Shown: one piece after another, positions 300 to 37,141 of the stretch
How the letters are laid out: each line of letters starts with the position of its first letter
Position numbering within the stretch: position 1 is the first letter of the stretch
DNA from: Phocaeicola sp.
GTDB lineage: Bacteria; Bacteroidota; Bacteroidia; Bacteroidales; Bacteroidaceae
Assembly: GCA_022764505.1 (NCBI GenBank)
Contig: JALEQJ010000054.1
Location: 1 to 37,141 of the forward strand
Direction of reading: 5' to 3'
Length of the DNA: 37,141 bases
Program-made: the position numbers and the translations under genes
The notes under the pieces: model-generated
Told to the model about the DNA's origin: nothing
The model's database searches: none
The model's input: only the letters and a program-made list of their open reading frames with translations

Positions 300-385
300 C
301 TCTTCCGTGATGAAGTTTATATAAACTTCGGTGGAAAAAGATGTAAACTGTGCCGTAGTTTATATAAACTTCTATGGAGAAATAA
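300..385 (+). repeat. Copy A (degenerate) of the ~86-bp quasi-palindromic element
   Basis: The leader is CTCTTCCGT (300-308; consensus CTGTTTCGT). After the usual 15-bp offset comes a perfect 18-bp palindrome at 312-329 containing the core GTTTATATAAAC (315-326). A decayed second core follows at 337-348 and an intact third core at 358-369. Phasing is 22 then 21 bp, so one base seems lost. The trailing terminal repeat around 376-385 is only loosely recognisable (consensus ACGRAATAG). The element sits just beyond the 3' end of menA. The other copies are at 8356-8441, 20996-21081 and 36726-36782. Confidence 0.75.
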
Positions 386-7448: not shown

Positions 7449-8021
7449 ATGAAAAGAATTGCTGTTTTTGCATCGGGAGAAGGAACGAATGCGCAACGAT
7501 TGATGGAGGTATTTCAAGCAGATAAAGAAGTCTCTATTTCCTTGATTATAACTAATAAACCCAATGCAGGTGTAATAAAAAGGGGAGAGCGTATGGGTGT
7601 TCCTGTCAAAGTATTGCCTCGCGCATCGTTTGACGATGGTACATTGTTGGCTATCTTGAAAGAAGCACAGATAGATTTTATTGTATTGGCGGGATTTTTA
7701 TTGAAAATTTCTCCGGAATTGGTGCAAGCATATCCTCAACGCATCGTAAATATACACCCCTCTTTACTGCCTAAGTACGGTGGTAAAGGTATGTATGGTG
7801 GTTATGTACACGCGGCTGTCATAGCGGCAGGAGAAAAAGAAAGTGGTATCACTATCCATTATGTGAACGAAGCATACGATGAAGGTGCTTATATTTTTCA
7901 AGCTCGTTGCGAAGTCCTGTCTACAGATACACCGGAAACTTTGGCTGCACGTATTCATACTTTGGAGTACGAGCATTTCCCTGCGGTGGTAGATTTATTG
8001 GTGAAAGCATTGCCGGAATAA
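7449..8021 (+). CDS. purN: Phosphoribosylglycinamide formyltransferase PurN
   Basis: PurN transfers the formyl group from 10-formyl-tetrahydrofolate to GAR in purine synthesis. The 190-residue protein begins with the phosphate-binding loop FASGEGTNAQ. It has the catalytic triad of the family at N101 and H103 (NIHPSLLPKYGG) and D144 (YDEGAYI), the same numbering as E. coli PurN. It is divergent from acpP, with 144 bp between the starts, and is followed by a long non-coding spacer. No good -7 element is evident directly upstream of the ATG. Confidence 0.95.
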   Translation: MKRIAVFASGEGTNAQRLMEVFQADKEVSISLIITNKPNAGVIKRGERMGVPVKVLPRASFDDGTLLAILKEAQIDFIVLAGFLLKISPELVQAYPQRIVNIHPSLLPKYGGKGMYGGYVHAAVIAAGEKESGITIHYVNEAYDEGAYIFQARCEVLSTDTPETLAARIHTLEYEHFPAVVDLLVKALPE

Positions 8022-8355
8022 GCCTTGTCTGTTTGATGATATAATTATTAATTCCCTACTTCTTTAGTCTTAGCACAACCCATTATGGATTGACGATGGT
8101 GAGGTACATATAGGCAGGATTATTCACTATGTTCCTAATCCTGCCCTAACAAAAGCATAACGCCTATAGCGTTATTTTGCAGAACTACGTTTAAGCAAGG
8201 AATCCCCATCGGGGATTTGCTGTTGATAGAGCAGGTGTTCGGACTGAAACGCAGAACCCTGCCTATACACGTACATAAAAACAATGCCATAGGTATTGTG
8301 CTAAGAGAACTTTGAGAATTACTTTCCTATTCAAGGGAGGTAAATAGGAATATCT
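8022..8355. other. Non-coding spacer with several hairpins after purN
   Basis: No gene is supported here. The stretch is dense in inverted repeats: GGCAGGATTA (8113-8122) with TAATCCTGCC (8136-8145); ATAACGC (8157-8163) with GCGTTAT (8169-8175); AATCCCC (8201-8207) with GGGGATT (8211-8217); and ACAATGCC (8281-8288) with GGTATTGT (8292-8299). None is followed by a T-run long enough for a convincing terminator. A short stop-terminated frame near the end reads NNAIGIVLREL, which may be the tail of a decayed coding repeat. Candidate readings are a structured RNA, a degenerate mobile or repeat element, or attenuator-like structures. Confidence 0.5.
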
Positions 8356-8441
8356 CTATTTCGTATCACAGTTTATATAAACCGCAATGGAAGTTTATAT
8401 AAACCATAGTGGAGGTTTACATAAACTTAAGTACGAAACAG
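8356..8441 (-). repeat. Copy B of the 86-bp quasi-palindromic element
   Basis: Read on the minus strand this copy has leader CTGTTTCGT (8441-8433), a 6-bp spacer, cores GTTTATGTAAAC (8426-8415), GTTTATATAAAC (8404-8393) and GTTTATATAAAC (8382-8371) with exact 22-bp phasing, another 6-bp spacer, and trailer ACGAAATAG (8364-8356). The architecture is 9-6-12-10-12-10-12-6-9, and leader and trailer are inverted repeats (8 of 9). It lies between purN and gltX, ending about 87 bp upstream of the presumed gltX -7 element. It is the only complete copy upstream of a gene start. Confidence 0.9.
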
Positions 8442-20995: not shown

Positions 20996-21081
20996 CTGTT
21001 TCGTGCTTTGGTTTATATAAACTTCCATTTAAGTTTACATAGACTTCCACTACGGAATATATAAACCGCGCCACGGAATAG
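20996..21081 (+). repeat. Copy C of the 86-bp quasi-palindromic element
   Basis: The leader CTGTTTCGT (20996-21004) and trailer ACGGAATAG (21073-21081) form terminal inverted repeats. Between them lie cores GTTTATATAAAC (21011-21022), GTTTACATAGAC (21033-21044) and GAATATATAAAC (21055-21066) with exact 22-bp phasing. Total length is 86 bp, identical to copy B, though core and spacer sequences differ by several substitutions. It lies between two convergent genes (POT carrier and symporter), ending 10 bp from the symporter stop codon. Confidence 0.9.
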
Positions 21082-26787: not shown

Positions 26788-26859
26788 TAGCCCATAGGGG
26801 AATCGAACCCCTCTTTCAAGAATGAAAATCTTGCGTCCTAACCGATAGACGAATGGGCC
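26788..26859 (-). tRNA. tRNA-Glu (anticodon TTC)
   Basis: On the minus strand this folds into a complete cloverleaf. The acceptor is GGCCCAT/ATGGGCT (last pair G-U), the D arm contains CTATCGGTTAGGAC, the anticodon stem CAAGA/TCTTG encloses loop TTTTCAT with anticodon TTC, and the T arm is AGGGG-TTCGATT-CCCCT. The 3' CCA is not encoded. A good promoter lies immediately upstream. It is the cognate of gltX at 8559-10076. Confidence 0.96.
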
Positions 26860-36665: not shown

Positions 36666-36706
36666 GAGGGTGTAGCAAAATATATTTTGCTACACCCTCG
36701 TTTTTT
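36666..36706 (+). terminator. Strong terminator after the rlmN-led operon
   Basis: GAGGGTGTAGCAAAA (36666-36680) pairs perfectly with TTTTGCTACACCCTC (36685-36699), a 15-bp stem with a TATA loop, followed by G and six Ts (36701-36706). The A-rich flank also allows function in the opposite direction, towards the IS side. Confidence 0.9.
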
Positions 36707-36725: not shown

Positions 36726-36782
36726 CTGTTTGGTGCCTAAGTTTATGTAAACCTCCACTATGGTTTATATAAACTTCGGTAG
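36726..36782 (+). repeat. Copy D of the 86-bp element, apparently truncated by an IS
   Basis: The leader CTGTTTGGT (36726-36734) is followed after 15 bp from its start by GTTTATGTAAAC (36741-36752) and GTTTATATAAAC (36763-36774), phased at 22 bp. The first 22-bp unit is identical to that of copy B. The third core and the trailer are missing, and the sequence changes to AGTGTCCCAAAAAGTG, which looks like an IS256-type end. About 29 bp of the element should therefore lie beyond the IS, outside the window. Confidence 0.82.
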
Positions 36783-37141
36783 TGTCCCAAAAAGTGTGTA
36801 AGCAAATCTTCTTCTCCATTCGAGGCATGATTATTGATACTGTTTATTATTTTTCTTTTTTGTTGTCATCGCTTAGATTCTTCTTTCTCCATCCACTCGC
36901 CTATATATGGTATCTTCTTAGAGTAAGTTGTTTCAGTCTTGCTACGAGCGACCTCTCCGAGCAGGAAGAGCACTGCCTGTGGTGATGGCATAGTGCCTCT
37001 CATCTTCAAGACACGCTTGTAATCCCTGTTCAGACGCTCTATCCAATTGGTGGTATATATCATTCTCTGCACCTGAGGAGGGAACTGCAAGTAGGTGAAA
37101 TGGGCGATGTTGCGCTCGTGCTTAAACTTACTGAACCCGGG
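36781..37141 (-). mobile_element. 3'-terminal part of an IS256-family insertion sequence
   Basis: The region holds the C-terminal coding end of an IS256-type transposase, a short trailer (36783-36865) without other genes, and a probable terminal inverted repeat starting near AGTGTCCCAAAAAGTG at 36781. The outer boundary is inferred from where the 86-bp element stops matching. The opposite end of the IS is beyond the window, so neither inverted repeat nor target duplication can be confirmed. Confidence 0.65.
36866..37141 (-). CDS. IS256-family transposase, C-terminal fragment
   Basis: The minus-strand frame is open from the right window edge to a TGA at 36866-36868, giving 91 residues. It includes FKHERNIAHFTYL, then YTTNWIERLNRDYKRVLK and MRGTMPSPQAVLFLLGEVA. 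This TTNxIExxNRxxKR segment is the hallmark C-terminus of IS256-type (mutator-like) transposases. The catalytic DDE residues would lie upstream, outside the window, so whether the element is intact cannot be judged. Confidence 0.9.
   Translation of the reverse strand, partial: PGFSKFKHERNIAHFTYLQFPPQVQRMIYTTNWIERLNRDYKRVLKMRGTMPSPQAVLFLLGEVARSKTETTYSKKIPYIGEWMEKEESKR

Follow-up and report, generated by a model that had tools for sequence, protein, structure and literature searches.

Bacterial chromosomes carry sets of protein-binding sites such as parS, matS and the SlmA sites, in which many single conserved dyads are distributed round the chromosome and each set is bound by one known dimeric protein. 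The arrays considered in this work, found in a bacterium of the genus Phocaeicola, are similar to these sets in having many dispersed dyads, but differ from them in that four dyads are phased with one another and their sequence changes. Prevotella intermedia, from which one of the repeats compared below was described, presumably belongs to the same family as our organism in the GTDB sense.

Several families of short intergenic repeats come close to these arrays. The BrickBuilt MITE of Porphyromonas gingivalis, a member of the same order, is intergenic, contains 23-nt repeats in tandem, flanked by a leader and a tail with inverted ends, and is present in about 19 copies (PMC4596501); its ends are GAGACCTTTGCA and it comprises from 1 to 22.8 direct repeats over 84–991 nt, so that ends, period and length are unlike those of the Phocaeicola arrays. 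Identity with BrickBuilt was rejected, because the arrays have neither GAGACCTTTGCA-like ends nor 23-nt direct repeats. PINSR, a 188-bp repeat of Prevotella intermedia and its relatives, is also intergenic and lineage-specific, with 177 and 184 copies in two strains and no function assigned; its authors report no terminal inverted repeat (PMC4755523), and PINSR is compared here by this description and not by its sequence. REP, BIME and REPIN elements, which go together with RAYT transposases, are short intergenic palindromes with many copies, mosaic arrays and species-specific sequences (PMC3733652). In contrast to them, our arrays have a fixed two-turn tandem phase and are accompanied by neither a Y1 transposase nor a GTAG or CGTC tag. 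In fact, PF01797 had no match in the assembly (2.14 Mb, 70 contigs, 93 percent complete), with 5 of 14 controls positive, and no such tag was seen by eye at the consensus ends (A1, A2). An earlier note on this DNA had considered a REP-like element; in the RAYT sense, this has to be abandoned, since the genome has no Y1 transposase.

The same note recognised no described family in the repeat, and this is still the case. Rfam gave no family at cut-off over the arrays, only miRNA models far below their cut-offs, and no description was recognised in open-access papers, where the sequence strings match one unrelated human mitochondrial paper only; BrickBuilt does not fit, and PINSR was compared by description only.

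The repeat in the window and in its genome

The window, that is, the whole stretch of 37,141 nucleotides that was analysed, contains the four copies reported earlier, each of them recovered in the sequence itself, by core matching and by matches of two profiles, R1, built from 30 aligned three-core copies of this genome, and R2, built from nine copies of sister species. Copy 1 (300..385, forward strand) consists of an end motif, a core at 315–326, a degenerate middle core, a core at 358–369 and a second end motif, and has two good cores only, 43 bp apart (R1 E 4e-9, R2 E 7e-7). Copy 2 (8356..8441, reverse strand) is a full 86-bp array with cores at 8371–8382, 8393–8404 and 8415–8426 (R1 E 3e-29, R2 E 1e-10); it is the best of the four and belongs to a recently copied subfamily. 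Copy 3 (20996..21081, forward strand), flanked by convergent genes, is again a full 86-bp array, in which one core is exact and two have 2 mismatches (cores at 21011–21022, 21033–21044 and 21055–21066; R1 E 9e-23, R2 E 3e-6). Copy 4 (36726..36779, forward strand) is the first part of a subfamily array with cores at 36741–36752 and 36763–36774; its remainder is cut off at about 36779 by the start of a Mutator-family insertion sequence. The distance of 15 bp from the end to the first core holds, by reading, in all four.

Profile R2 found the four copies at E 1e-10 to 3e-5, the next best match being not below 0.2; as its nine source copies came via R1, this recovery reflects a shared profile and is not an independent discovery. 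Around gltX of two sister genomes R2 had no match, and purN was not found beside gltX there, so that no orthologous site of copy 2 was available for comparison. An ordinary tRNA gene (RF00005) is located in the window at 26788–26859 on the reverse strand.

Taken alone, the window has 10 core matches with up to 2 mismatches against 3.4 expected, a number reached in 2 of 100 shuffles, and is only moderately unusual in this respect. It is the whole genome that makes the repeat decisively real: the exact word GTTTATATAAAC occurs there 113 times, whereas the reversed word is absent (0 occurrences) and base composition would lead one to expect about 0.5. With copy 3 as query, BLAST returned 80 matches in the genome, both strands counted, and R1 gave 154, also on both strands (150 candidates scored). 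In the 396 kb of DNA fetched around the matches, 94 arrays were collected, and the genome total is thus at least 94. The earlier idea was to be given up if a genome-wide search revealed no further copies or showed the sequences to be the ends of a known IS; this check was made, and the idea was not refuted by it. Three cores are present in 57 of the 94 arrays, two in 25, four in 8 and one in 4.

The two-turn phase of 22 bp was borne out in this genome by a count of distances without any spacing restriction. Among 208 cores with at most one mismatch in the 396 kb, core–core distances below 200 bp were 22 bp (94 cases), 44 bp (32), 43 bp (9) and 21 bp (6), plus four single longer values; this count is independent, unlike the spacing counts of the array finder, which permits steps of 21, 22, 43 and 44 bp only. 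A sequence-blind scan for tandem periods in 261 kb of this genome gave 17 loci at lag 22 and one at lag 21; the remaining lags between 15 and 30 were empty, and block shuffling left no locus at all. Phased dyads at a constant two-turn spacing, as in a phased operator array, are consequently a feature of this genome.

Both ends were located in 53 of the 94 arrays. The length from end to end is 86 bp in 36 of them, 64 bp in 7 and 85 bp in 5, and lengths of 42, 65, 87, 108 and 129 bp were found in one array each; the values 64, 86 and 108 differ by one unit. The boundaries are sharp, because column information in 17 older arrays of 22/22 spacing drops from 0.8–1.65 bits inside to 0.2–0.3 bits outside; since cores were the basis for choosing these arrays, the values of the cores are inflated, and those of ends and spacers are unaffected. 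The spacers TTCCAYTATG and TTCCATTGCG are not palindromic, and the dyads of this genome are therefore imperfect. The description of the family as dispersed and almost wholly intergenic proved right: 2 of the 94 arrays overlap an ORF of at least 100 aa, although 81 percent of the DNA was called coding by a simple ORF caller. Gaps with older arrays are divergent in 28, tandem in 25 and convergent in 8 cases, against 17, 59 and 9 for array-free gaps of the same DNA.

The four-dyad plan in related species

The letters of the repeat are species-specific, and its architecture is family-wide. The exact two-core tandem occurs 23 times in this genome versus 0 in 59 other genomes of the genus, and the two-core pattern at one mismatch occurs 84 times here versus 0 in 398 other genomes of the family. 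In a pattern scan of genome contigs, from which the own and near genomes were possibly excluded, the exact two-core pattern was found in one archaeal contig only. R1 had weak matches in six other genomes of the genus, and these, when read out, follow the same plan in other letters, TCTATAAAC-CACAGTGTG-GTTTATATAAAC ..., closing with GTTTATAGA. The nine sister-species copies of R2, from five genomes, form an alignment of 91 columns with gaps at the ends only. With E 1e-4 as the limit, R2 matched 64 of 399 family genomes (this one included), which represent 14 of 30 genera; with 10 candidates scored per genome, the copy counts are floors, and the absence of a match in the other 335 genomes should be read with the limited reach of R2 in mind. 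Across the phylum it matched 2 of 395 genomes, both of this genus, and at least three other sampled members of the family were without a match.

In 80 copies from 17 genomes of relatives, four dyads were recognised, and of the 240 intervals between dyad centres 201 measure 21 bp, 18 measure 20 bp and 10 measure 22 bp; the script was confined to a few bases around 21. This changes part of the earlier description. The three palindromic cores are real, but the relatives suggest four dyads, made of three full cores and half-cores at the ends; the 9-bp terminal repeats exist, but on the four-dyad reading they form the outward halves of the two end dyads, the first and the last; and the 22-bp period, correct for this genome, is replaced by 21 bp in most relatives. 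A sequence-blind scan of 330 kb of Bacteroides finegoldii gave nine loci at lag 21 (seven arrays and two coding repeats), none at lag 22, one each at lags 20 and 25 and two at lag 23. In 400 kb of genome G058, the same kind of scan gave four at lag 22 (one beside a lag-21 array, not array-like) and one each at lags 15, 18 and 21.

The Bacteroides finegoldii arrays came to notice through a copy of genome G301 that is 97 percent identical over 131 bases to this species, nine records of which hold 24 such places. These records are labelled plasmids, yet bear ordinary chromosomal genes. The taxonomy of this species, taken together with the kinship of the genomes scanned with R2, suggests that the family in question is the Bacteroidaceae. 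In the 330 kb, R2 found 7 arrays, 0 of them inside annotated genes (the annotation tables are incomplete according to PLSDB), and one array lies 428 bp upstream of groES. BLAST of plasmids with the L061 and L202 segments gave no match, nor did BLAST of phages with the L177 segment and two pattern scans of viral contigs.

Within some genomes the dyad centre is uniform or nearly uniform, and it differs between genomes: CACASTGTG, CAAASTTTG, AACGWCGTT, CGGCASTGCCG and ATCACAATGTGAT were found. The central base is only C or G in G128 and G168 and only A or T in G126 and G035; it is nearly of one class in G110, mostly of one class in G007, G023, G028 and G195, and mixed in G059, G046, G158, G088, G165 and G341, while G040 and G390 contributed four dyads each to the tally. 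Identity between copies of one genome is 0.86–0.94 in G110, G128, G168, G023 and G007, and 0.35–0.74 in G059, G158, G088, G046 and G165. In G110 and G128, where copies are 92–94 percent alike, the inverted repeat is extended by outer arms and reaches about 150 bp or more. The linkers between dyads are, by reading, directional. A coding role of the 21-bp period, equal to seven codons, was considered and rejected: 26 of the 80 copies of relatives lie in ORFs of at least 90 aa, but the frames differ.

As a separate observation, the archaeal contig mentioned above (L046, Woesearchaeota) carries GGTTTATATAAACCAATATTAT at about 1160–1290 as a tandem of two or three 22-bp units; these apparently lie just upstream of a start codon and look like operator repeats.

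Orthologous copies and a recently copied subfamily

Related species retain copies of the element in corresponding positions. In genomes G007 and G023, two arrays share both flanks and two more share one flank. Flank identity was measured over 45–160 bp on either side. Among the three fully aligned orthologue pairs, the element exceeds its flanks in two, with 0.96 against 0.64 and 0.78 (L177/L205) and 0.92 against 0.76 and 0.59 (L178/L206); in the third, L176/L282, with both flanks shared, it does not (0.89 against 0.92 for both flanks), which speaks against strong constraint. One-sided comparisons gave 0.91 for the element against 0.83 for the aligned flank (L181/L207) and 0.86 against 0.77 (L182/L208); for L191/L131 the values are 0.90 against 0.86, and for L193/L214 they are 0.85 against 0.95 for the aligned flank. 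In comparison with G040, the element has 0.75 (L182/L166) and 0.76 (L208/L166), against flanks of 0.39–0.50. The pair L189/L125 is identical throughout and hence uninformative on constraint. Judging from these identities, selection may keep copies in place. The L176 site is occupied in G040 too, where contigs break inside the array. In G058, the equivalent gap had no R2 match below E 0.4; the same gap contains a 22-bp periodic stretch (0.49 identity at lag 22, reached by 0.2 percent of random windows) and other palindromes, which is a post hoc observation.

The genomes of L189 (G028) and L125 (G039) are assigned to different species; a 3-kb locus is 99.8 percent alike in them, and another common locus about 91 percent.

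In six orthologue pairs, the dyad centre turned into its complement in 7 of 24 dyads and showed no other change. Other arm sites changed in 22 of 240 cases, and 0 of these 22 changes were compensated. Exchanges between C and G are far commoner at the dyad centres than at other positions, for which the counts are 2 of 240 (arms) and 1 of 312 (remaining sites). By reading, L176/L282 adds two centre flips in four dyads. Flips to the complement only would be expected of a reader with two-fold symmetry, to which the orientation of the central pair makes no difference; they would likewise result from template switching in a hairpin.

About a quarter of the arrays of the window's genome (22 or 27 of 94 by two rules), copies 2 and 4 of the window included, belong to a subfamily that was recently copied together with its flanks. 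In many members the unit comprises a terminator-like hairpin, then the array and then a tail of 100–600 bp with small palindromes such as CCCCGATGGGG and CAACCCCATAGGGGTTG, as seen at 8040–8441 of the window (reverse strand) and in L004, L005, L061 and L066. The tail beyond copy 2, traced by similarity coverage to other copies, occupies 8040..8355 on the reverse strand (its end is approximate), between the array and purN (7449–8021). Near copy 4, a terminator-like hairpin with a T run, read by eye, is located at 36666..36706 on the forward strand, and such a hairpin precedes the array in many subfamily copies. Rfam had no match to the longer dispersed unit around the array. The fetched DNA has 27 hairpins of one type, of which 16 lie 55–78 bp from the nearest core, 2 at 120–134 bp and 9 at 436–607 bp, the far ones facing, by eye, the opposite way. 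The near hairpin of that type is absent from copy 2 and L008, and the middle of the tail is missing from the shorter forms L010 and L035.

The IS end inside copy 4 (36780..37141, reverse strand) includes the C-terminal part of a Mutator-family transposase at 36866–37141, open at the contig end (PF00872, E 2e-11). All three ends of one Mutator-family IS in the fetched DNA are inside arrays, 17–33 bp from a core (window 36780–37141, G000:C46 29962 and G000:C64 27549). This IS may prefer arrays as targets, in DNA that was itself fetched around arrays.

Possible nature of the element

In our opinion, the 86-bp repeat can tentatively be considered, at rather less than even confidence, as the species version of a family-wide intergenic cassette of four dyads, in which dimers of one trans-acting protein bind phased sites and which spreads by copying, some copies being kept. 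Between defined ends, four dyad sites would follow one another at intervals of two helical turns, which amount to 22 bp in this genome and to 21 bp in most relatives. Each dyad would be bound by a dimer of one putative trans-acting DNA-binding protein per species, and the four dimers would line up along one face of the helix. The cassette would spread by copying, and at least some copies would then be maintained in place. The constant two-turn phase, the changing sequence, the dyad symmetry and the free centre flips together make up the pattern that four symmetric dimers on one face would impose; from it we infer protein binding, the symmetry of this binding and a change of specificity between species. 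The protein dimers on one DNA face suggested in the earlier note thus fit best with the phase and the dyads, but no protein was identified in a search that covered Y1 transposases. Selective maintenance of copies is suggested, the evidence being mixed, and a regulatory or chromosome-organising role may be supposed. Against one protein, it should be said that the copies of G059, G158 and G088 are not uniform, which one protein would not predict, and against binding sites used in place, that copying with flanks is the behaviour of a mobile element. The imperfect dyads of this genome, the pairs L176/L282 and L193/L214 and the 335 family genomes without an R2 match also count against this reading, the last of them within the limited reach of R2. 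A wider version, in which the Bacteroidaceae would have a chromosome-wide system of sites with tens of four-dyad cassettes per genome and one oligomeric reader per species, site set and reader switching dialect together while the two-turn geometry is held, seems rather unlikely.

Close behind the binding-site reading comes that of a mobile element with a mover that reads the dyads, and both can be true. The element would be selfish and non-autonomous, MITE- or REP-like, its palindromes being the sites of a trans-acting transposase or recombinase, its dialects the result of co-evolution, and its intergenic bias that of survivors of selection; we regard this as possible, though less probable than the cassette of protein-binding sites. 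Copying itself is evident from the subfamily that moved with its flanks and from the 92–94 percent alike copies of G110 and G128 with their long outer inverted repeats. Dispersed copies with sharp ends, the patchy distribution among genomes of the family and the pair L176/L282, no better conserved than its flanks, point the same way, and the inverted ends, the length of 86–93 bp and the lack of coding capacity (ORFs over copies of relatives are in differing frames) are those of a MITE. The earlier comparison with MITEs therefore stands for a short, dispersed element with inverted ends, but not for a target duplication, since none of consistent length was found in 28 older copies (4 of 891 length–offset combinations had z above 3, the best listed being 3.2, and none was below −3). 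The genome also lacks a Y1 transposase, the only family of movers searched for; related species have copies in the same position, and in two of three well-aligned pairs these are more conserved than their flanks; and the four-dyad plan is kept in most genera while every letter changes, all of which argues against this reading.

The palindromes could also belong to a structured RNA or a single-stranded DNA hairpin, for example, an element processed or terminating in untranslated regions, and this seems improbable. The whole element folds well as a long hairpin, and in the subfamily G.T pairs exceed A.C pairs by 84 to 11. However, of the 46 older copies whose strands differ by at least 3 kcal, 36 fold better on the G-rich strand of their contig, and mutation bias of the replication strands explains the G.T excess there, so that the RNA hairpin reading of this asymmetry was rejected. 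In the subfamily, the better-folding strand is the G-rich one in 15 of 25 copies, and the favoured strand is constant relative to the element, as explained by a common founder; it does not follow the direction of neighbouring genes. Pairing of the outer arms is better inside a copy than across copies in G110 (81 versus 69 percent) and slightly so in G128 (85 versus 81), and the same holds for the inner arms in G158 (71 versus 27) and G088 (70 versus 51), where copies align poorly; but inner arms have no such advantage in 9 of the 11 genomes that have four or more copies, no arm change was compensated in orthologues, and Rfam had no family at cut-off. The least probable explanation, and a very doubtful one, is a functionless minisatellite arising from replication slippage and template switching at palindromes. 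It would account for lengths that step by whole units and for the complement-only changes of the centre, but not for the prevalence of three cores and of 86 bp, for the recurrence of a nearly equal length across genera, or for one plan at many places, which needs copying beyond slippage.

The element is recognised by its geometry and not by its sequence, and is easily missed by repeat finders and Rfam, seeming each time to be an oddity of one species. It may serve as a landing strip for a paired DNA-binding protein or represent a small mobile element of a new kind. If the dyads bind one protein, the joint change of specificity in such a protein and its many sites could be tested directly, and a factor that organises the chromosome or regulates genes globally might come to light in common gut and oral bacteria. 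If the element is mobile instead, it would represent a widespread class of small elements.

Apart from these considerations, the palindromes record the replication strand, G.T rather than A.C mismatches gathering on the G-rich contig strand in the 36 of 46 older arrays.
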